IMG/VR virus record: IMGVR_UViG_3300025603_000009 | Coordinates: 1 to 64,000 of that record | Reading direction: 5' to 3' (one strand) | DNA from: a virus | Length of the DNA: 64,000 nt | Shown here: positions 5,619-58,530 of the stretch, piece after piece | Layout: each line of letters starts with the position of its first letter | Numbering within the stretch: the stretch's first letter is position 1 | Notes under the pieces: generated by a model | The model's database searches: none | Told to the model about the DNA's origin: nothing | The model's input: the letters and a program-made list of their open reading frames with translations, nothing else | Made by a program: the position numbers and the translations under genes

Positions 5619-8600
5619 TTATTTGCGATAAACTCCTTGACCTGTACTATATAGTCTATATGCTTGTGTTCCAAGTGGCATTAATTGTAATGTTTCACGT
5701 AGTAATCTACTATCACCTGAATAAATACCCGTTGCAATAGTATCATCATTTTGTATAAATCTACCACCAGCAATAATAAACTCATATAAATCTGTAACTA
5801 ATGTACTTACAGGAATAAGATTTTTCATAAGTGCTTGTTGCTCTTGTGGATTTACATAAAATGTTATATCTGTTTGCATACGAGTTAACATATTTATTAA
5901 ATAGTTTGAATAAAGTTTTTGATCTTCATCATCATCATCTAATGACGCTTTAATTAAAACGTGAATTGCAATAAGTCCTGCATATATAACTAACTCTTGT
6001 AAATTAGCTCGCATATTAGCAGCATCTACTTCATTAAATCTATCATCAAATTTAGTATCTCTAAAAGTAGCTTTTCTAAATAATTGATTTAATGTAAATA
6101 CAACATTAGATATACCACTTGTTTCTATATTAGATACTTTAGGTGTAAAATATAAACTACTTATAGTTCTATATCTACCTTTACGAGTATATTCTAAGTG
6201 TGAATCATACTTTTCACTTTCAATACGTGAAGCCCAACCTTCAAACATCCAAGTTCTAAACTGTGCTAACGCTCTACCTAAAAACTTACGTTTAATAGCT
6301 AAAGGTGACAAGTGGTCATAATTACCATGATTCTTTTTAATAACTTGATCTAAGTTATTTTTAAATCTATTAGAAGATTTATTATGTGCATAATCAGCAG
6401 GATTACCACTCCATTCATTATTTTCAGCAAACTCTTGTGTATTCCAATTACCTTCATTATCATATGCTTCCCATAAAGTACGTTCTTCTCCATTAAGATC
6501 AGTAATTTTTTTGTTTAACATCATAGCAATCATTACAGGAGCTTGATTTAAATACTCACTACGCTTCTGTAAATTATATGCTTCTAAAAACTTTAATCTT
6601 GTATTTAATGTTGTTTCTTTAGAAGTTTTATAAAGTTCATTTGACGCATCTTTTAATACATCAAATTTATCCATAATCGCTCTAATTTTAAGAGCCAACA
6701 TTGCAACATTTGATTGATCAAATTTATCTAATTGGTGTGCAGTTAAATTTCTACCTATACTACTCCAAGTCATTCTATACGCTTTACGTAATTGACCTTG
6801 TGTATAATCTCTACCATCAGCAGCAGTAATTAAATTAGAAATATAACCAAATCCCATGTTAGCTACAGCAGAAAATGTATTCCAACCCATACCTTTAAGT
6901 TGCATCCACTGTAAAAGATTATCTCCTACACGTGAAGCAGCAATATATCCACCTACATTTTCTGCTTTAAGTTCTAATTCAGCCCTAAGTGATGTATATT
7001 CTTCATCTTCAATATCATTATTAACTTTTAATAATTCTAATTCTTTTAATAAATCTTCATACTTTTTCTTTTCAGCTTTTTCAATAGGCGTAAGAAATTT
7101 GATATTACTTACACCTTCTACTTCACGGGCGTACCCATAAAATACTTTAAAATAATTTTCGTAAGCAGTACGTAAATTTTTAAAACTATCAATTTCTGAC
7201 TTCTGTACAACGTTATCATACGGATCAGTAATTTTTTCATTTTTAGGAGTAAATCTACTTTCTCTTGATTCGTTAATAATGTTTCTAGCAATTTGAACAT
7301 AATCTTCAATAGCTGATTTGTGTTTATAACTTAACACTGCCATTGAATACGCTTTAATAACTTTACCTAAATCAAATGATTTAGTTTCTGCAACTTCATT
7401 AGTAGCTTTTCTACGTAAATTTTGAACATAAACTAAATCAGGTTCAGAATTAGTTTTAATACGAAATTCTAAAACACCTTTTTCAACTATTTGATCAATT
7501 GCACGTTTTTGATCGGGTAACATTTTTACTTCAAGTTGTGCATCAACTTCTCCTGTTATAGGGTCAATATCTCCATACATTGTATCTTTAATACTACCTT
7601 CTGTTGTACTAGCAATAAGTTTATCATATACAGAAGCTAACCCAGTTTTAAGTCCACCTTCATCAAACTGTTCTATTACAGCTTTTAAAATAGTTGGAAG
7701 TGTATTTACTTGTACGTTTTTACGACTATTGTAAGGTAAATATTTATGTAATGATGAAAAAGTATCAATCATAAATTCATAAAATTCACTTAATGTTTCA
7801 TCATTAGCAATAGTATCAAATCTTGAATCATTCCATATAGTAGCTTCACCAGTTTCTAAATTAGTTTTACGTGGTGTTTCATATGTAAAACGATGACCCA
7901 TAGGTTTAATAAAATTACCATCAATTTTAATACTTTTACCTTTATTAACAGCGTTACTATAATAATAAGGAGAATTTTCAATTTCCCATATTTTCATACG
8001 TTTCTGACGCTCTGACAAGCTACCAAATCCATTATCTACAATCTCACTGTACATGACGTCGAACTCTTCAAAGAACGTCGCCATACGTGCTTCCATACGC
8101 TTTGACAGAACGTTGTAGCGATATTCCCCCATATTGTTTTTTAACTCTGCAATATGTTTTGCTTTAGCTTTTTCATCAAATTTTCCAACATACGTTAATC
8201 TATCATCTGCAACAACAGGTGGAGCTAATAATCTAGCATCCATTAAAATTTCATTATTATGTTTCCAATCAAAATAATTATCCCACATAGCAGGATTATC
8301 AGATTCATTAGCACGATTAAATAATGCTTTTTTAGTCTCAAAAAATTCTTGTGTATAAGGATATATAATATTACCAGTTTTTTCACCCGTATTATATTTT
8401 TGCATAAACGGTTCATACAATGCTGTACCATTTGTTGTTTGTTGTATAGCTTTTAATTTTGCTTGAACTTCAGGAAGTAAACTATCTAGTTTAGCGTAAA
8501 TTTTATTTGCTTCATCAAATGCTCTTGAATTTGCATTTTTAACAGCATCAGATACTAAATCTAACATTACAAAACCGTATCTACTAATATCTAATACATT

Positions 8601-11600
8601 AGCAGATGCAACACTAATATCAGCTTTATTTGATAATTCTTCAGTAACGTCAGAATCAGGACTTCGTTCTCTTACAAAATCATTCATACTTTCAATATTC
8701 AATATAGAAAGTTTAGTATCAAATTGATTTATTTTTCCTTCAATTGAAGAAAACATATTAGAAATAGTTTCACTAAGTTTTTCTGCATCATTTAAGAAAA
8801 TTTCACTAGCATTTTTCCACAAGTGAATTAACTTTTTAGCATAAAGAAGATCACCAGTTGTCATATCATTACTAAAGATAACTTCTAATTCATCTATATC
8901 TTTTTTAGCAAAAATTGCAATTTCTTCAACAGTTAAAGCATCAGTTAATTCATCTATTTCTATATTTAAATCAGCAATTGTATCTTCTAATACATTTACA
9001 CGATAAAAATCTTTGTTATTATTTGCTGTAGCTATTTGTTGATACAACATTTTTTTACGTGAACGTAAATTTCCTATTAGTTTATTAAAACGATTAGAAT
9101 TTACATCAGTTGAATCTCCACTACTTAATGCAAAATCTGTAGTATCTTCTTCAACTACAATAACATAACCATAGCCATCTGCACGAGCAGTAGCTTTAAT
9201 ACCACTGTATTGCTTATTAATGTGACTAGCAATACCAGGGTCAGTTTTTAAAGTCCAACCACCTTTACGATTTTTAAGTTTAAATCTTTTTATAATATCC
9301 TGTACAGTGCTACGTTGTTTTGCGCCCGTGATAGAAAGATCACGATCTTTAAATTGATTAAGTAGTGTATTATATAATTTAGTATCAGAAGCATTTCCAA
9401 ATTCAACATATATTAAATTATCTTTAGCATTTTTTAACGCGGTTACAAATTCAGGATTTGTAGCGTGTAAATAAGTAAAAAATAATTTCATTGATTCTTT
9501 AAGTTGTACATTAGTAATATTACTATTACCTTTAAATGCTAAATAGGCTTCTTCTAAATTAGCATAATTATACATACCTAATGATATACCCCCACTATTT
9601 TTAGGATTTAATACAGAATCTTTAGTTACTTTGACAACATTTTTAGCGGGTTTACCAGTTTTTGTTTCAAGTAAAGATAACACATAAGTCATAGCTGCTT
9701 CAAGTTCGCTATTTTCATTAATGTTAGTACCTGTAAATAGTTGTGAAATGTATTCAACTATTTTTTTCCAAAAACTAATATCATCATTATAATTAGTTTC
9801 ATTTAACAGTGCTTGAAAATCTGGTGAAGTTAAAGCTAATGCAACGTATTCTTTAATATTATAACCAGCATAAATTACTTCAGCTTCTTCTTCAGTAATT
9901 ACAACGTCTTTCTTTTGTTTTAATCGTTCAATTTTTTGTACAAGTGCTTGCAATTTTTTACTATCTACTCTATTTCTAAAATTAATAAACAAACCATTAA
10001 TTTTAGCTACAAGTTGTATTTCTTCAGCCGTTTTAGGATTTATAAGTGTACTATTTAAAGCAGAGTGTACTAATTCGTGCAACATTACCTTCTCTAATTC
10101 AGCAGAATCTTGTAAAGCATCAGGATTAAACGTTAAAACTTTAGTTGCATTATTAAATTGTGCAGGATTACCTTTAGATAATCTTACATCTATTTGTAAT
10201 GCAGCTAATTCAAGTTTTGAACTATTTGCAAGAAGTGCTTCGGCTACTAATTTATTTCTTGAATTAGTAGATTTTTCTATAACCGTCTTTAAAAAATCTT
10301 TTGTTCTTTCAACAGCATTTTTTTTACTTATAAGACCATAACTTTCAGCAGTACTTTGTTTAAGTACATTTTTAACTTTTTTATTGTCAATAGGTGTTGT
10401 TTCTAATGTAGGATTATTAGCGGGTAATTCATAAGTAGTAGTTTTATTACCGACCATCATTGATTTTGCAACTTCTGCTCCAGCATCATATTCAGAATGA
10501 CCGTGTGCATCACCCAATCTATCAAGAATAACATACGTATTACCAACTCTAAGATAAGGATAAAACTTTTTATTTGTAGGATTTCTATATTTAATCATTG
10601 AAGGTACCGAGTTCATATCTAACCCTTCAATATAAATATTAAGACTATCATTATTTATTGTACCATCTTCATTTACTAAAGGGTCAATAAAATCTAATTC
10701 TTCTCCATTTTGCAATTCGTTAACATTATGTTGAAAATATTGCATAGCCATAAAACTAACTCTTTCTCTTACTCCTGTAGATAGTCCAAATAAAGAGGCG
10801 TTATTTAATGAAGCATTTTCAGTAAGTTGTTTTGCTATACCAGAACGAATAAGATATTGTGGTGGAATATATTTAACATATTGAACAGCACTTTGAACAC
10901 CACCATTTAAATACATTAACTGTATTAATGATTCCATTAATCGTGTTGTTGTCCACTCTTCACCATTGTACGTACCTATAACTTCATTAGAAGTTAATAA
11001 ATCAGCAACAGCACTATATATTGCAGTTTCATCTGAATTTTCAGCTGTACTTGCATACATCATAATATCAGCAGGTAACGAACTATTTTTACTTGGCGTA
11101 GCTTGTAATCTACTTAAAAAAGCATTTTGTCCAATAGGTTTATTTCTTAAATCTAATAATATTGAAGCAACAGACATATGAATATGTTCTGTATTTATAC
11201 CATCAAATGTATATTTATCATACATTAATTGTGAACGTGATTCAAATGCGTCATCAGTAATTGTATCAAGCGAAGTATATACAAAAGACTTCATAGCATT
11301 AAAAACTTTTATTCGTCTTTCAATGCTAGTATTTAAATTAAACTCTGCGCCAGCAAGTCTTTCAATTTCATCTACAACTCTACTTGGTACTGCATTTGTA
11401 TAAGGAAAGAATTTTGACCAAGATGCTACAGTTGTATTTAAAGCATAAACTGTAGCCATACCATTAATAGTACGTGGTCTTATATAGGTTGTAGCATTAA
11501 TTTTAACATAACCTAATTTTAAAAAAGTTTCTGAATCAAGATCTTGTCCTATAGGTACTTTTTTATAATCTCCAATAATAGCTTCAACATTCATAATGTT

Positions 11601-14600
11601 GGTACTATATGGAAGATTAGAAACACCGTCAAGTTTTGTTTGTGCGGCAATTAAAGAAGAACCTTTAGTTGATCTACCAATACTTACACTATCACTATTT
11701 ACTAATGCTTGTACTTTTCTTAAATCTCTACCTTGGTCTTCTAACATCATATTCTTTTTAAGAATAGCAAGTTGTGAAAAACGATAAGATTCTGATTCTT
11801 TATTTTCAGTAGCTAATAATTCAATAAGTTTAGTTCCTGAAACATCTGCATTTTCATCATATTTAGATGTATATTTATTACCACTATCATACTTTTCAAA
11901 AAGTGTAATATAAGCTAATTCTTTAGCTTTAACATAAGGCATTTCTTTACTTAACTTAGAAATTAATTTATGATATTCACTAATAATAGGTTGACTAATA
12001 AACGGTATAATTGTAGCTTCGTCAAATCCTTGACCTACTAATGTACGTATAGTATTAAAATTATCACCTACAACACTTAAAGGGTCCATTAGTAGATTAT
12101 TTTCATTATCTACTGAGATATTTTGAAAAGCCGAAAATACATCAATTTTTGTACGTACACCCTTATCATTAGTTTTTGGTTCATTTAAATTATTACTAAC
12201 TAAATCGCCAAATCTAATTTGTTGTACAACAGGTTTACCTGTTTCATCGGTAGTATAAAAATATACAGGAGATTCAGATTGTTGCAATGCAGCAAAATAT
12301 ACACTGTCCATACTAAAGCTACCAATACCATCTTTACCTTCACGTGCGCCTAAATAACGTTCTGTTTGATACTGTTCACTTAGTCCCGAAACAAAATCTT
12401 TTTCACCTTTTGCTTTAACTACAGCTTTATACAGTTCACCATCTTTACTCATAAGACCAAAACTTAATGGTCTTTTAATTCGCGCTTGAACTTCTTTATT
12501 AGAATTACTCATAACAGCAATATGAATATCCAAAAGCCTATTATGAAGATTTTTAATTTCTAATTTTCTACGAATAACTTTAGCATCTGCAGAATCAAAT
12601 TCTGTAGAACCTAAAATATCTCTAATTACTTGATCATTAAGAGCTTCAATTTCTTCTTTTGTATCGTAACTTACTGCACGTAAACTTTTACGAATTATTT
12701 TATCTGCAAATGTACCATCATTACGAACAAAATAATTGTTAGCTTTAGCAAATTCTTTACGACCTCTTGAGTCATCAAATTTGTCTATATTTTTACGAAT
12801 AATATCTCTTTTTGCCTTTGGAGAGTAATTATCAGTCGATATGAACTTTTGATATTCTTCTTCAATTTCATTAGGTTTTTTATTATTATTTGCGTATTCA
12901 GCTTCAACATATGTTGCACGTGACATAGCATATAAACTATCTACATCAAAATCTGAACCCATTCTAACAATAAAATCTCTAGGTGCAATAATAATATCTC
13001 CCATAGCTTCAGGAAGAAATCCTACAACTTCAATATAAGACATACTATTTTGAGCAGAAGTAGGAATACGATAACCAAACATATCTAATATTTCCGTAGG
13101 TAATTTAGATACATCAAGCATATTTCCAACCATAAAATCTGCAATATTTAATGTATTACCATAGTTATCTTTAAATTTAAACGGAACTAATACTTGATCA
13201 GGAGTTACTTTACCATCTTTATCATAAGAAGATGGTTGTAATCCTTTAGCAGCATCATAATTTTTTGTATAAATTATACCGTTTTTATCTTTATTAGTAA
13301 TTTCATCTTCAGTAAAAGTAGTTTTTTTCCAACCTTCTTGAGGTGCAAGAACATAAGAACTACCTGTTACAAGAATTTTTCTAATCTTATTTTCAACTAA
13401 TGAATTTAATAATGCTTCAAATTTAGAAGCAGAAGGAGAAAAGAAAATGGGAATTATAAAATTATTGTTATCAAGTTTTAACCCTTCAATTTCATTAATA
13501 TTATAGTTACGTTCTCGCGCTTCTTTTAAAATTATTTCATTAATTTTATTATTATTAACTGTACCATCTTCATTAAGAAGTTCATCTTTAAAATCTGCAT
13601 AATGAAGTTTATACAAATTATTATAAGTATCTAAAAATGTTTTGTTTAATTGCTTACCATTAATTTTTTTACCTTTATATGTAAAGTCTTGAACGTGTAG
13701 AATATCAGCAAACAATAATTTTCTTTGTTGAGAACCATCATTAATTACACCTTTTTCTTTAAATGGAACTTCATTTTGAATACCAAAATCTCTTCTATCA
13801 AGTTGTTTAGTATAAAGTGTAGAATCAATATCTTTTAAATCTTTAATACTACCATCTGAATTCCATATATTTAAAGGTTGTTCTAAATTACCTTGTTTAA
13901 TACCTGAACCATAAACACTTCTATCAATATCGTTAGCTTCCATAAACTCACGTAATTTATCAATATCGTGACCTTCTGTAAACTGTTTAAGTAAAGTTAT
14001 TTCTGCTAATTTAACATAAGTTTTAATATCAACATCAAATTCTTCAGATATTTCATTACCGTTAAAAACAGGTTTTTCAGCACCTAATACAATTTTTAAT
14101 TCTTTTTTAGAAAGTTTATCTCCTCTATCATGTTTTACAATTAATTCATTACCACGTTTTTGTGTAATAATACCTTTACCTACAAGGATTCTTACTTTTT
14201 CTTTTAGTGTAGTAACACCGTGTGCATCTGTAGTTTCAATTGCTTTATATTGTGCAGAATCTTTACCTAATATTTCTTCATAATGTGCAAGAATAGCAGA
14301 ATCCATTTTTAAATCCTGTAAATACAACATAGTAAATTGTTCATCTTTACTATTAGCTAATTCTTGTCTTGGCGCAGCTTCTCCAGCAAGACGTTTACTA
14401 ATATTTTCAAATGTATCTTTTATTTGTTGTTGAACACTGCTATTAGGATTACCTTTATACGATAAAGCAGGATCTCCTGCAAACATCATATACATATTTG
14501 CATTAGCAACAAGATAATTAATTTCCATGTCTGCGGCTGCTACACGTGCAGTATCAATATTAGCATCTTCTGCTACATCTGTAGCTTGTAAATTTAATGT

Positions 14601-16961
14601 AGCGGTGTAACGTGGATCTAAAAATTGAGATGCAACTTTACCACCATCAGTAATAATTTCAGCATCTTGCCACAATTTAATACGATTGTTTATTAAAGTA
14701 TTTACGTGTGTATTTAAAATTTTATAAAAAGTAGGTTTAAATTCTTCTAACAACACATCAGGAGAAACAGTTTTCTCACTCATTTTAATACTGTCATTAC
14801 CTATCTCAATATTGTTATCTTCAAGAAAAATTTCATACGCATCATTTAATTCAGGTATAAAATAAAATATGTTTGCACCTTCATTATAACCTTTAAGATT
14901 AACTTGTTTAACACGCTTTTGATGATTTATTGTACGTAATAATTCTGGAAGTACAAGAGTATCATACAACATATCTAAAGTAGGTTTACTTAACGATCCA
15001 GTAGATGTTAATGAAATAGGATAACGAGGTGCTGTAATTTGGTGTACAGTCTTTTTATCTGATGTATTTAAAAAATTATAAATGACATAATCTTTTCCTT
15101 GATTTTGAAACATATGTAATTTATACTTTAGTAAATCATCAGAACTTAATCGTTCAATAGGAATTGGACGACCATCTGTATCTCTATAAGTATCTGCATA
15201 AGTGATTTTTAATTTATCTTTTAAAACAGAATCATCTTTAGCTAATTCTCGTAGCCATTGTGAACCCGAATTAAAAGACAATTTTAATAACCCTTCAACC
15301 AAATTTGGTTCTGTTTTTAGACGGTTTAAACGGTTAATCATGTGTTTATTGTTGCTGTAAAACCATCTAGTTTTACCTTCACCATCTCTACCAGAATTAG
15401 AATATAAGTTATTACTAAAACGAACAGTGTGTTTTGCTAATGAAACAACAGCAGTATCAGAAAATAAGTCATTTTGTGTTAATGATGTTTTACCACGATT
15501 TCTAAAGTTTTTAGCAATTTGATCAAAAACATTATTTTTACCTAATAGTGTATCAAAACTAACTAAATCTCCTTGATAATAAATACCGTAATCAATTAAA
15601 GATTTAACAGCAGCGTCTGACATATCCATACCTACACTAGACAACCAACTTTGTACCATTTCAATTGTAGGTGTAGTTTTTTGTAATACATCAAAAGCAT
15701 CTAATATATCTTTAACTTGTTGTGTGTCTGTATTAACAAATACATCTACATCGCTACCTGATTCATCTGATTGTACAAAATCTTTTGCAATGTAATTACT
15801 ACGCCATTGTTTAAGTATACGCTTTTCTGCACTTGCACTATTTACATCACCCACATTTAATTGAATTGTACCATCTTCTCTAACAACACGTCGAGCATAA
15901 TTCATTTCAACGTAATGTTTAATCATATTATACTGAATAGCATTTTGTATAGAACTATCTGCTTCTTCAATACGCTCTGCAACTTGAGATAAAAATGGTT
16001 TATCATTTGCTGCATCATCTAAACGTGCAATTAATGAATCTATATCAGTATCACTACCAGCTAAAATTTCAATAACACTATCGTATACTTGATCAAATGG
16101 TACACGTTCTTTAAGTGCTAAGAAATTTGCTTTAGGTTTTTGATCTGCTTTTACATCTATAATATTAGCAAAAAATCTACGTAATTGTGTACTAGCTCCA
16201 GATTTAGGGTCTATAGATAAACTTCTTTTATCATTATAATTATTATTAGCAACACCTCCTGAAGTTTCTAAATCTTCGTCATATGTATTATCGTCAGACA
16301 AAACAAAACCTTGTTGATTTTCAATACGATTTGTAGCATAAGTTGTAAAACTTTCCCAATCATCTAATACTCTTTGAATATTATTAGCAACTACATTAGA
16401 TATTTTAGTGTCTTTTGCTCTAAGTTCCCTTTGATGTTTTTCAAGATTGGTTCTTGCAACTTTATACGCCTTTGATAGAGTGATAGGATTACTATCTTCT
16501 GCTTCATTTTGTTCTAATAATTGCCCTTGTACTGAACCTACAATTACATTAATAACAGATTCAGCTTGTGTAGGAGTAAATCCATCAATAATATATTTGG
16601 AACCAAAATCATCTTTTAATTCTGAAATAGCAGAAGCACTTAAAGCCATATCTTCTACACTACGAACGTGTTCAAGTAAAACTTCCAATTTAGGTTCTTC
16701 ATCTAGTCTACCATTCTCCTGTTCAAAGGCGGGTGTATACATATAAGCCTTATACCTAAAAGCTAAAGCGCGATCATTATCTACGTCATCTAATTTAAGT
16801 ATTTTATTAAAAAGTGGAGAACTAACACCTTCGCTAGTTTTGTCAATATTATGACCTTTATTAGCAACCCACAATAAATCAGCGGTATTTGTATTACCAT
16901 TAAAAGCGTTTAATAATTCTTTATATTCAGAATTATTACGGTTTGGACAAAATGTACTCAT
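5619..16961 (-). CDS. Giant virion RNA polymerase, crAss-like (DFDxD) with zincin motif
   Basis: At 3780 aa this is the largest gene here. Residues 1280-1345 contain a beta-prime-like double-psi barrel signature: YRIPTSAQNSMSYIEVVGF, then GDIIIAP, then GSDFDVDSLYAMSR with Asp1337, Asp1339 and Asp1341. This matches the DFDxD active site of crAss-like virion RNA polymerases, which are carried in the particle, injected with the genome, and transcribe early genes. A metallopeptidase-type HELVH motif (His2295, Glu2296, His2299) lies about 960 residues further on, so the protein is probably multidomain and perhaps self-processed. Hydrophobic stretches near residues 3360 and 3655 could contact membrane during ejection. 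It is coupled to the upstream gene by TAATG and is the last gene of the late block. It is much longer than the roughly 2200-aa phi14:2 enzyme. The polymerase call is strong; other domains are unresolved. Confidence 0.88.
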   Translation of the reverse strand: MSTFCPNRNNSEYKELLNAFNGNTNTADLLWVANKGHNIDKTSEGVSSPLFNKILKLDDVDNDRALAFRYKAYMYTPAFEQENGRLDEEPKLEVLLEHVRSVEDMALSASAISELKDDFGSKYIIDGFTPTQAESVINVIVGSVQGQLLEQNEAEDSNPITLSKAYKVARTNLEKHQRELRAKDTKISNVVANNIQRVLDDWESFTTYATNRIENQQGFVLSDDNTYDEDLETSGGVANNNYNDKRSLSIDPKSGASTQLRRFFANIIDVKADQKPKANFLALKERVPFDQVYDSVIEILAGSDTDIDSLIARLDDAANDKPFLSQVAERIEEADSSIQNAIQYNMIKHYVEMNYARRVVREDGTIQLNVGDVNSASAEKRILKQWRSNYIAKDFVQSDESGSDVDVFVNTDTQQVKDILDAFDVLQKTTPTIEMVQSWLSSVGMDMSDAAVKSLIDYGIYYQGDLVSFDTLLGKNNVFDQIAKNFRNRGKTSLTQNDLFSDTAVVSLAKHTVRFSNNLYSNSGRDGEGKTRWFYSNNKHMINRLNRLKTEPNLVEGLLKLSFNSGSQWLRELAKDDSVLKDKLKITYADTYRDTDGRPIPIERLSSDDLLKYKLHMFQNQGKDYVIYNFLNTSDKKTVHQITAPRYPISLTSTGSLSKPTLDMLYDTLVLPELLRTINHQKRVKQVNLKGYNEGANIFYFIPELNDAYEIFLEDNNIEIGNDSIKMSEKTVSPDVLLEEFKPTFYKILNTHVNTLINNRIKLWQDAEIITDGGKVASQFLDPRYTATLNLQATDVAEDANIDTARVAAADMEINYLVANANMYMMFAGDPALSYKGNPNSSVQQQIKDTFENISKRLAGEAAPRQELANSKDEQFTMLYLQDLKMDSAILAHYEEILGKDSAQYKAIETTDAHGVTTLKEKVRILVGKGIITQKRGNELIVKHDRGDKLSKKELKIVLGAEKPVFNGNEISEEFDVDIKTYVKLAEITLLKQFTEGHDIDKLREFMEANDIDRSVYGSGIKQGNLEQPLNIWNSDGSIKDLKDIDSTLYTKQLDRRDFGIQNEVPFKEKGVINDGSQQRKLLFADILHVQDFTYKGKKINGKQLNKTFLDTYNNLYKLHYADFKDELLNEDGTVNNNKINEIILKEARERNYNINEIEGLKLDNNNFIIPIFFSPSASKFEALLNSLVENKIRKILVTGSSYVLAPQEGWKKTTFTEDEITNKDKNGIIYTKNYDAAKGLQPSSYDKDGKVTPDQVLVPFKFKDNYGNTLNIADFMVGNMLDVSKLPTEILDMFGYRIPTSAQNSMSYIEVVGFLPEAMGDIIIAPRDFIVRMGSDFDVDSLYAMSRATYVEAEYANNNKKPNEIEEEYQKFISTDNYSPKAKRDIIRKNIDKFDDSRGRKEFAKANNYFVRNDGTFADKIIRKSLRAVSYDTKEEIEALNDQVIRDILGSTEFDSADAKVIRRKLEIKNLHNRLLDIHIAVMSNSNKEVQARIKRPLSFGLMSKDGELYKAVVKAKGEKDFVSGLSEQYQTERYLGAREGKDGIGSFSMDSVYFAALQQSESPVYFYTTDETGKPVVQQIRFGDLVSNNLNEPKTNDKGVRTKIDVFSAFQNISVDNENNLLMDPLSVVGDNFNTIRTLVGQGFDEATIIPFISQPIISEYHKLISKLSKEMPYVKAKELAYITLFEKYDSGNKYTSKYDENADVSGTKLIELLATENKESESYRFSQLAILKKNMMLEDQGRDLRKVQALVNSDSVSIGRSTKGSSLIAAQTKLDGVSNLPYSTNIMNVEAIIGDYKKVPIGQDLDSETFLKLGYVKINATTYIRPRTINGMATVYALNTTVASWSKFFPYTNAVPSRVVDEIERLAGAEFNLNTSIERRIKVFNAMKSFVYTSLDTITDDAFESRSQLMYDKYTFDGINTEHIHMSVASILLDLRNKPIGQNAFLSRLQATPSKNSSLPADIMMYASTAENSDETAIYSAVADLLTSNEVIGTYNGEEWTTTRLMESLIQLMYLNGGVQSAVQYVKYIPPQYLIRSGIAKQLTENASLNNASLFGLSTGVRERVSFMAMQYFQHNVNELQNGEELDFIDPLVNEDGTINNDSLNIYIEGLDMNSVPSMIKYRNPTNKKFYPYLRVGNTYVILDRLGDAHGHSEYDAGAEVAKSMMVGNKTTTYELPANNPTLETTPIDNKKVKNVLKQSTAESYGLISKKNAVERTKDFLKTVIEKSTNSRNKLVAEALLANSSKLELAALQIDVRLSKGNPAQFNNATKVLTFNPDALQDSAELEKVMLHELVHSALNSTLINPKTAEEIQLVAKINGLFINFRNRVDSKKLQALVQKIERLKQKKDVVITEEEAEVIYAGYNIKEYVALALTSPDFQALLNETNYNDDISFWKKIVEYISQLFTGTNINENSELEAAMTYVLSLLETKTGKPAKNVVKVTKDSVLNPKNSGGISLGMYNYANLEEAYLAFKGNSNITNVQLKESMKLFFTYLHATNPEFVTALKNAKDNLIYVEFGNASDTKLYNTLLNQFKDRDLSITGAKQRSTVQDIIKRFKLKNRKGGWTLKTDPGIASHINKQYSGIKATARADGYGYVIVVEEDTTDFALSSGDSTDVNSNRFNKLIGNLRSRKKMLYQQIATANNNKDFYRVNVLEDTIADLNIEIDELTDALTVEEIAIFAKKDIDELEVIFSNDMTTGDLLYAKKLIHLWKNASEIFLNDAEKLSETISNMFSSIEGKINQFDTKLSILNIESMNDFVRERSPDSDVTEELSNKADISVASANVLDISRYGFVMLDLVSDAVKNANSRAFDEANKIYAKLDSLLPEVQAKLKAIQQTTNGTALYEPFMQKYNTGEKTGNIIYPYTQEFFETKKALFNRANESDNPAMWDNYFDWKHNNEILMDARLLAPPVVADDRLTYVGKFDEKAKAKHIAELKNNMGEYRYNVLSKRMEARMATFFEEFDVMYSEIVDNGFGSLSERQKRMKIWEIENSPYYYSNAVNKGKSIKIDGNFIKPMGHRFTYETPRKTNLETGEATIWNDSRFDTIANDETLSEFYEFMIDTFSSLHKYLPYNSRKNVQVNTLPTILKAVIEQFDEGGLKTGLASVYDKLIASTTEGSIKDTMYGDIDPITGEVDAQLEVKMLPDQKRAIDQIVEKGVLEFRIKTNSEPDLVYVQNLRRKATNEVAETKSFDLGKVIKAYSMAVLSYKHKSAIEDYVQIARNIINESRESRFTPKNEKITDPYDNVVQKSEIDSFKNLRTAYENYFKVFYGYAREVEGVSNIKFLTPIEKAEKKKYEDLLKELELLKVNNDIEDEEYTSLRAELELKAENVGGYIAASRVGDNLLQWMQLKGMGWNTFSAVANMGFGYISNLITAADGRDYTQGQLRKAYRMTWSSIGRNLTAHQLDKFDQSNVAMLALKIRAIMDKFDVLKDASNELYKTSKETTLNTRLKFLEAYNLQKRSEYLNQAPVMIAMMLNKKITDLNGEERTLWEAYDNEGNWNTQEFAENNEWSGNPADYAHNKSSNRFKNNLDQVIKKNHGNYDHLSPLAIKRKFLGRALAQFRTWMFEGWASRIESEKYDSHLEYTRKGRYRTISSLYFTPKVSNIETSGISNVVFTLNQLFRKATFRDTKFDDRFNEVDAANMRANLQELVIYAGLIAIHVLIKASLDDDDEDQKLYSNYLINMLTRMQTDITFYVNPQEQQALMKNLIPVSTLVTDLYEFIIAGGRFIQNDDTIATGIYSGDSRLLRETLQLMPLGTQAYRLYSTGQGVYRK

Positions 16962-56937: not shown

Positions 56938-57087
56938 AGAGTATGTCCGTACTCTATAAGTGCTGTCTAACACGAATACTATTAAACGTAGTAGTATTTT
57001 GTTTACTATTTATTATGTGGTTTTGTCATGATTTTTCCACATACATGAAAAAGGTTATAAAGTTTAATACTTTGTAGCCTTTTTTTG
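56938..57087 (+). ncRNA. Three-hairpin RNA ending in a strong terminator
   Basis: Successive hairpins are AGAGTA/TACTCT (56938-56955), GTG/CAC at 56960-56973, and AATACTA/TAGTATT (56975-56998). They are followed by a 16-bp stem with two G-U pairs (57048-57063 with 57069-57084), loop TTAAT and T8. No plausible ORF lies between the previous terminator and this one, so a non-coding transcript is the simplest reading. Promoter not located. Confidence 0.45.
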
Positions 57088-57338: not shown

Positions 57339-57944
57339 ATGAATACTTTTACCATTACTAACGTGCGTCTGTTACCTCAGATTGGAACTAACGCGCCTGC
57401 TATGATTATTGATGTTGCTAACCATACTACTGGTATTTACCGTAGTGAGAAGGTGGCACTGATTGACCTTCGTGATGCAGGCATCACTGCTACTAGATTA
57501 GCTGACGTTGAACTCGTTGAACTACGTGAACGCTTCATTGGCGGTAGAGTTAGTGGAGACATTATCTTCCACAATGCTGGTAGCACATACATTGCTGATG
57601 CAAACTCTACTGCTGTCGTTAGCGGTGCTGTCGAAGTTGGTGCTACACTCAAACGTAAGGCTGACCAATTTCGTGTTGAACGCTTTCTTACCATCTCCCG
57701 TAGTGATAACGCGATGCTGCGTTCTGCTATTGCAAAGGAAGCTGGTCAGGCAATGGCACAGCTATGCGGAGGGTTTGTTCCTTCTGCTAACGTTGGTGCT
57801 AGTGCGCAACCAGCATTAGAGGTTGGCGGTAATCATCCTGATGAAGATGATACTGTTGATGGTGACGCTGAAGAAGCTACTGAAGAAGCTACTGAAGAAG
57901 CTACTGCTCCTGTTGGACGTAGAAGCCGTCGCAAGACAGCATAA
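57339..57944 (+). CDS. Codon-biased 201-aa protein with acidic repeat tail, unknown
   Basis: I chose ATG at 57339 (MNTFTITNVRLLPQIGTN) over an upstream TTG because the extra N-terminus has different composition and would extend into the leader. G+C and C-ending codons (CGT for Arg, GCT, GAC) are far higher than in adjacent genes, as in a strongly expressed or transferred gene. The N-terminal 150 residues look like a mixed beta/alpha domain (RFIGGRVSGDIIFHNAGSTY). The C-terminus has an acidic tract with three exact copies of the 12-bp unit GAAGAAGCTACT (57870-57905, giving EEATEEATEEAT), then basic RRSRRKTA. Acidic tails occur in single-strand DNA-binding proteins, but I see no proof. A ribozyme follows the stop at once. 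Confidence 0.6.
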   Translation: MNTFTITNVRLLPQIGTNAPAMIIDVANHTTGIYRSEKVALIDLRDAGITATRLADVELVELRERFIGGRVSGDIIFHNAGSTYIADANSTAVVSGAVEVGATLKRKADQFRVERFLTISRSDNAMLRSAIAKEAGQAMAQLCGGFVPSANVGASAQPALEVGGNHPDEDDTVDGDAEEATEEATEEATAPVGRRSRRKTA

Positions 57945-57946
57945 TA

Positions 57947-58018
57947 TGCGAAACGACGATAGTAGCGATACTATCGTCGTCTATCACACGTGATGGTGTG
58001 GTACTGATGAGCAGTCAC
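57947..58018 (+). ncRNA. Type II hammerhead self-cleaving ribozyme
   Basis: All conserved core bases are present in type II order. Stem II strand TGC (57947-57949) is followed by GAAA (57950-57953); stem III is a 12-bp perfect hairpin 57953-57964/57969-57980 with GNRA loop GCGA. Then comes cleavage triplet GUC ending at C57981, stem I TATCACAC/GTGTGGTA (57982-57989/57996-58003, one G-U), core CTGATGA (58004-58010), and GCA (58011-58013) closing stem II. Loop I GTGA (57990-57993) can pair with TCAC (58015-58018) as a pseudoknot, as in type II ribozymes. Predicted cut is after 57981. It starts 3 bases after the TAA of the 201-aa gene and would separate its mRNA from the next. Stem II is only 3 bp, the one weak point. 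Confidence 0.85.
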
Positions 58019-58158
58019 TAATGTACGCATACGTAGTTATTACGTGTGTGTACGTAAGCATAGTCTAATCATACTTACAGCGCGAACACTGTAATGTCTC
58101 AGACTTGTCTCTTTATTAATGTCTTAGAATTAACAACACAAATAATACCACAGAAATT

Positions 58159-58530
58159 ATGATTAAGTTTTCTAAAGTGATTAGAACTATACTACTATCA
58201 ATAGTATTAATAATATTATTCATACAATTGTATGGTGATGTATTCAGTACTACTATGCCAGTATTACTTATGGCTCAATTGATGGCTTGTATTGGTATTG
58301 CATTCATATTCTTTACAGATCATAACGAATATGATGATTGGACTCAAGTAAAACCTAAAGACTGTGATGAATCTCGTAGATATTGCAATGATATAAAATG
58401 TATTAGTGGCAATACTACATTTCTTGGTAGTAGATATGATTCCAGTGATGCAGTTGTATACAAGTATAGGTGTTATGATTGCAATACTACATATGAAATT
58501 GCAGAAGTACGTTTAAGAAAGAGGTTGTAG
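58159..58530 (+). CDS. Two-pass membrane protein with Cys-rich tail (123 aa)
   Basis: Two membrane helices (about residues 8-26 and 33-52) are followed by a cytoplasmic tail with cysteines spaced C-x6-C, C-x4-C and C-x2-C (KDCDESRRYCNDIKC; YRCYDCN), suggestive of a small zinc ribbon. Ends in a basic RLRKRL. Not recognised. The 214-base leader between the upstream stop and this ATG contains the hammerhead ribozyme and further hairpins (ACGTA/TACGT at 58031-58045), so its mRNA may begin at a ribozyme-made 5' end. Confidence 0.55.
   Translation: MIKFSKVIRTILLSIVLIILFIQLYGDVFSTTMPVLLMAQLMACIGIAFIFFTDHNEYDDWTQVKPKDCDESRRYCNDIKCISGNTTFLGSRYDSSDAVVYKYRCYDCNTTYEIAEVRLRKRL

Follow-up and report, generated by a model that had tools for sequence, protein, structure and literature searches.

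The locus and its genes

In the 64,000-nucleotide stretch of viral DNA analysed here (hereafter the window), a gene for a 201-aa protein with an acidic and then basic C-terminal tail occupies positions 57339-57944 on the + strand, beginning with an ATG at 57339 and ending with a TAA stop codon at 57942-57944. Three nucleotides separate this stop codon from G57948, which belongs to a type II hammerhead ribozyme spanning 57946-58020 (+). A second long hairpin (58018-58058, +; 18 pairs with one mismatch) was found by hairpin scan and folding directly 3' of the ribozyme and is not followed by a U tract. The next open reading frame (ORF), of 123 aa, lies on the same strand at 58159-58530 and starts 138 nt past the ribozyme. 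Upstream of the 201-aa gene, at 57047-57085 (+), the hairpin scan detected a terminator-like 17-bp hairpin followed by a T run, and because of this element the 201-aa gene probably has its own promoter.

The encoded protein has no match among PHROG or Pfam families, and an AlphaFold2 model of it reached a mean pLDDT of 51 and a pTM of 0.40. Searches of the gene and its flank against named phages (tblastn, blastn) gave no match, and an alignment scan for further homologs of the protein returned none beyond the strains already known. The ribozyme and the gene together have a GC content of 47% within a genome of 30% GC, and the codon use of the gene is unusual.

Core and fold of the ribozyme

The Rfam covariance model Hammerhead_II (RF02276) matches 57946-58020 on the + strand over its full length (model positions 1-66) with a score of 53.3 bits, compared with a gathering score of 37 bits, and an E-value of 3.7e-8, and is for these reasons far beyond chance. 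Nothing else in the window matches Rfam. No second RF02276 match occurs in the 82,585-base (82.6-kb) virus record, so that the ribozyme is single-copy, and no other Rfam ribozyme was found in the window or in the relatives searched.

The initial annotation had described a complete type II core with a short stem II, and both descriptions held when every coordinate was checked base by base. Stem II is formed by TGC at 57947-57949 and GCA at 58011-58013 and comprises 3 bp (T57947-A58013, G57948-C58012 and C57949-G58011). It is followed by the core GAAA at 57950-57953 (G12, A13, A14 and A15.1) and by stem III at 57953-57980, in which 12 perfect pairs from A57953-T57980 to A57964-T57969 are closed by a GCGA tetraloop of the GNRA type (57965-57968). 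The GUC cleavage triplet lies at 57979-57981, stem I at 57982-58003 with 8 pairs from T57982-A58003 to C57989-G57996, including one G-U pair, around the loop GTGATG (57990-57995), and the second core segment, CTGATGA, at 58004-58010. All three conserved elements of the core (CUGANGA, GAAA and NUH, here GUC) are therefore present in type II order, with loops closing stems I and III and with stem II open. The predicted scission point between C57981 and U57982 is backed both by the covariance-model match and by the completeness of the core.

Folding of the region gave a z-score of -3.5, with none of 200 shuffled sequences as stable, and stems I and III were retained when a context of 321 nt was folded. 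Covariance match, core and fold together identify the element at 57946-58020 as a genuine type II hammerhead, which lies in the 3' untranslated region of a phage gene. That stem III is merely a terminator or a plain mRNA-stabilising hairpin with a chance resemblance to a ribozyme has hardly any probability: stem III by itself would indeed make a strong hairpin after a stop codon, like those of two relatives of the phage (see below), but the full model matches at an E-value of 3.7e-8 with every core base in place, and stem III is not followed by the U tract of an intrinsic terminator, the terminator scan listing none at the position of the ribozyme. Elsewhere in this phage several hairpins are followed by T runs. 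As an ordinary terminator was thus available, the ribozyme appears to be an alternative rather than a necessity.

Pseudoknot and wider set of type II hammerheads

A pseudoknot between loop I and the 3' flank had also been proposed, and the pairing is possible at the predicted positions. The loop I half GTGA (57990-57993, +) can form 4 bp with the 3' tail half TCAC (58015-58018, +), namely G57990-C58018, T57991-A58017, G57992-C58016 and A57993-T58015. For comparison, viral contigs were scanned for the core together with this 3' tail, which yielded 96 stretches; stems I and III form in 93 of the resulting 97 pattern-selected sequences (the 96 and the window's own). A wider scan enlarged the set to at least 190 distinct type II candidates. 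Across these candidates the third pair of the pseudoknot is G-C in 171, C-G in 7, A-T in 5 and T-A in 2 cases, and the fourth is G-C in 163, T-A in 7, T-G in 6 and A-T in 1, with some candidates unpaired at either position. Only tail positions that were left free count as evidence of covariation, because the first search pattern had fixed part of the tail. The single A-T case at the fourth pair is the ribozyme of the window, where GTGA/TCAC takes the place of the common GTGG/CCAC and the double change keeps the pair. Matched variation across the candidate set is thus consistent with the predicted pseudoknot.

Stem III with its 12 perfect pairs falls into the longest class among the at least 190 candidates listed. 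All other type II loci found have a GC content of at least 40%, and matches in organism-named cellular genomes all belong, by their record titles, to Proteobacteria-type hosts.

Host phage and relatives

The terminase, major head protein and portal of the phage match PHROGs of crAss-like type, and its large terminase subunit (TerL) is 35% identical to that of Crassvirales over 91% of its length. By these markers the host of the ribozyme is a crAss-like phage; the family is left open because TerL also shares 31% identity with its counterpart in Flavobacterium Fipvunavirus, which stands outside Crassvirales. An ORF of 3780 aa at positions 5619-16961 of the window contains the motif DFDVD, which is reminiscent of the catalytic motif found in the giant virion RNA polymerases that crAss-like phages encode. 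ARAGORN detected no tRNA within the window; outside it, a tRNA gene at L003 9110-9193 (genome 71695-71778) scores 35.2 bits, above the Rfam cut-off.

An identical ribozyme is carried by a near-identical strain (L002). Strain conservation was rejected as evidence of selection, as the near-identical overlapping contigs show zero base substitutions when aligned and the copy in L002 therefore says nothing on this point. RF02276 had no match in 15 named crAss-like and related genomes, nor in 11 further contigs whose terminases are related, several of these contigs being fragments. Within the genomes searched, the ribozyme is accordingly not conserved in the crAss-like lineage. It adds a new member to a known kind of element, in a phage lineage that is new for it.

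Two of these 11 relatives (G002 and G006) encode a homolog of the 201-aa protein with about 30% identity. Directly behind the stop codon of the homolog each has a different strong hairpin (z-scores of -5.6 and -4.6), in which neither a hammerhead nor a clear U tract was found, although a loosely T-rich stretch follows the hairpin of one of them (L020), not that of the other (L021). In these diverged relatives the position is thus occupied by a hairpin instead of a hammerhead. With two relatives, it is suggestive only that a 3' hairpin at the homologous spot is older than the ribozyme or independent of it. The homologs in both relatives are also GC-richer than their own loci, and for this reason an import of gene and ribozyme, as the GC content might indicate, was not adopted.

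Position behind stop codons

Of the 64 unique ribozymes in the first set, 48 were positioned between -20 and +40 nt past the stop codon of an ORF on the same strand, counting mechanically called ORFs of 80 aa or more. Random positions, which fall mostly inside genes, gave 8.4 ± 2.9, and the opposite strand gave 6. Among sequences from cellular genome contigs that are absent from the viral set, 10 of 13 were found behind a stop codon versus 1.8 at random. The enlarged set gave a similar picture: among the matches listed, 119 of 179 distinct ribozymes on viral contigs were located in the same bracket past the stop of an ORF of 80 aa or more, whereas random positions gave 22.8 ± 5.1. Of these 119, again among the matches listed, 102 were placed at -1 to +7 nt, whereas an even spread over the bracket would put about 18 there; the probability calculated for this comparison presupposes that the loci are independent and the null is even. 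The upstream genes fall into unrelated protein families, 15 of 18 of which have a median gap of -1 to +7 nt, and they include DUF3164, Mu Gam, an HU-type DNA-binding protein and DUF2786/DUF7168, all of which are genes of Mu-like phages. The 3 nt between stop codon and ribozyme in the window lie within this peak. Downstream start codons were not enriched (96 of 156 versus 92.3 among the matches listed), which is a weak control given the high background.

Proximity to a stop codon is partly expected in dense phage genomes, but the sharp peak at -1 to +7 nt is not. The sharpness of the peak and its spread over families are thus the stronger arguments for anchoring. That most phage type II hammerheads lie behind stop codons suggests that they may trim the 3' ends of phage mRNAs.

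Ribozyme arrays in other contigs

A contig from IMG/VR (G013; L252, IMGVR_UViG_3300017605_000570) carries 24 type II hammerheads at Rfam level within 7.6 kb, all on the - strand at contig positions 9932-17520 (within the contig stretch 8501-19000). In 22 of the 23 intervals between them a single gene of 26-342 aa ends no more than 3 nt from the next ribozyme, and most of these genes begin 9-12 nt past the previous ribozyme, after a purine-rich, GAGGTG-like stretch. Provided that all of these ribozymes cut, every gene would end up on an mRNA of its own, with stem I at the 5' end and stem III at the 3' end. The 24 sequences are all different, with a mean similarity of 0.74, and keep the core and stems, a pattern that speaks for selection on structure. 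A DnaD-like helicase loader gene lies nearby; Pfam models for terminase and portal had no match on the contig. Four more contigs (L022, L101, L096 and L253; G015, G017, G018 and G016, respectively) each carry 8 or 9 type II hammerheads, all on a single strand, and in G016 the genes fit the ribozyme intervals less tightly than in G013.

Possible function in mRNA processing

The probable role of the ribozyme, plausible though unproven, is to give the mRNA of the 201-aa gene a fixed 3' end. The nascent transcript would fold and cut itself between C57981 and U57982, leaving the mRNA of the 201-aa gene with a 12-bp hairpin with a GNRA loop and a 2',3'-cyclic phosphate directly behind its stop codon, and releasing the downstream RNA, which would begin with a 5'-OH and stem I. 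The likeliest purpose would be a 3' end that is compact and protected by a hairpin, with no terminator needed there. A 3'-terminal hairpin with a cyclic phosphate should resist the 3' exonucleases of general bacterial RNA decay. If the ribozyme is indeed bound in position to the preceding stop codon, cleavage would be expected to raise or fix the expression of the upstream gene.

A role at the 3' end fits because hammerheads are anchored to the upstream stop codon, because the relatives have hairpins at the same spot and because G013 shows one gene per interval. The initial annotation had put forward such an mRNA end, which agrees with all three observations, together with a separation of this mRNA from that of the downstream gene, which agrees less well with an ORF that starts 138 nt away. 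A point against a fixed 3' end is the pseudoknot of just 4 bp, as in one tested hammerhead a reduction of the pseudoknot from six pairs to four lowered the rate about 20-fold (PMC3088659).

Alternatively, both ends could matter, with a polycistronic transcript being split into single-gene mRNAs that carry a hairpin at their 5' and 3' ends. The array of G013 has such a geometry, and Perreault et al. propose that long phage transcripts are processed to operon- or gene-length mRNAs (PMC3088659). For the phage studied here this is nevertheless unlikely, with a single copy in the genome and the downstream ORF at its distance of 138 nt. It is distinctly unlikely that the ribozyme rather serves the downstream gene, in which case the cut would set the 5' end (5'-OH and stem I) of the 123-aa mRNA and control its translation or decay. 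A co-directional ORF does follow the ribozyme, the next start codon in G013 is often 9-12 nt past the ribozyme, and in the haloviruses HF1 and HF2 a known hammerhead precedes a helicase gene by 13 nt (PMC3088659), but in the window the ribozyme lies 138 nt from the next start and 3 nt from the stop, and stop codons are enriched beside ribozymes while start codons, by the weak start control, are not. Taken together, roles that involve the downstream RNA have a minority chance.

A ribozyme without any role is improbable. In particular, it is very improbable that the element, though descended from real hammerheads, is a passenger that was acquired recently or is decaying and has no present role in this phage. 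Its absence from the other crAss-like genomes searched would fit such an origin, as would the 47% GC of ribozyme and gene in a 30% GC genome when other type II loci have at least 40% GC. However, the core and the 12-bp stem III are perfect, the pseudoknot has been kept through a double change, and the homologs in relatives are also GC-rich with respect to their loci, so that composition is no proof of import.

Beyond this locus, and more tentatively than the role of a fixed 3' end proposed here, type II hammerheads might be used by phages in general to make mRNA 3' ends, standing in catalytically at the stop codon for a terminator or a stabilising hairpin. In the lineage of this phage the ribozyme would then have replaced the ordinary 3' hairpin kept by its relatives.

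Relation to known elements

Type II hammerheads, with their pseudoknot, short stem II and prophage clusters, and the idea of transcript processing were described by Perreault et al. in 2011 (PMC3088659), a paper in which the words 'stop codon' and 'terminator' are absent. A 2017 review regards the role of hammerheads in prokaryotes as open and notes the link to phages (PMC6155905). The absence of an earlier description, as the initial annotation had assumed for this ribozyme, is in line with a search of part of the literature, in which nothing relevant on hammerheads in crAss-like phages was found. Within the same partial coverage, the stop-codon rule and the long array go further than published descriptions. 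The ribozyme adds a crAss-like phage to the hosts of type II hammerheads. From the comparison comes a testable rule, by which the position of the ribozyme is linked to the stop codon of the preceding gene.

With Hammerhead_II (RF02276) the ribozyme shares closed stems I and III, an open and short stem II, the core, the GUC triplet, the pseudoknot and the association with phages. It differs in its host, a 30% GC crAss-like phage, in a pseudoknot pair that is A-U where most have G-C, and in the 12 perfect pairs of stem III. The HDV-like theta ribozymes of gut phages (PMC10879173) are also a class of self-cleaving RNA in phages of gut-type communities, but they are of another class, which has no Rfam match in the window and which their authors link to tRNA-based recoding. 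An intrinsic terminator or 3' stabilising hairpin would equally place a strong hairpin right behind the stop codon, but here the hairpin lacks a U tract and is part of a complete ribozyme with a predicted cut at its 3' foot. The hammerhead clusters in prophages of Agrobacterium, Azorhizobium and Clostridium scindens (PMC3088659) also lie on the sense strand beside phage genes and are thought to process transcripts, whereas the phage studied here has one copy behind one gene.
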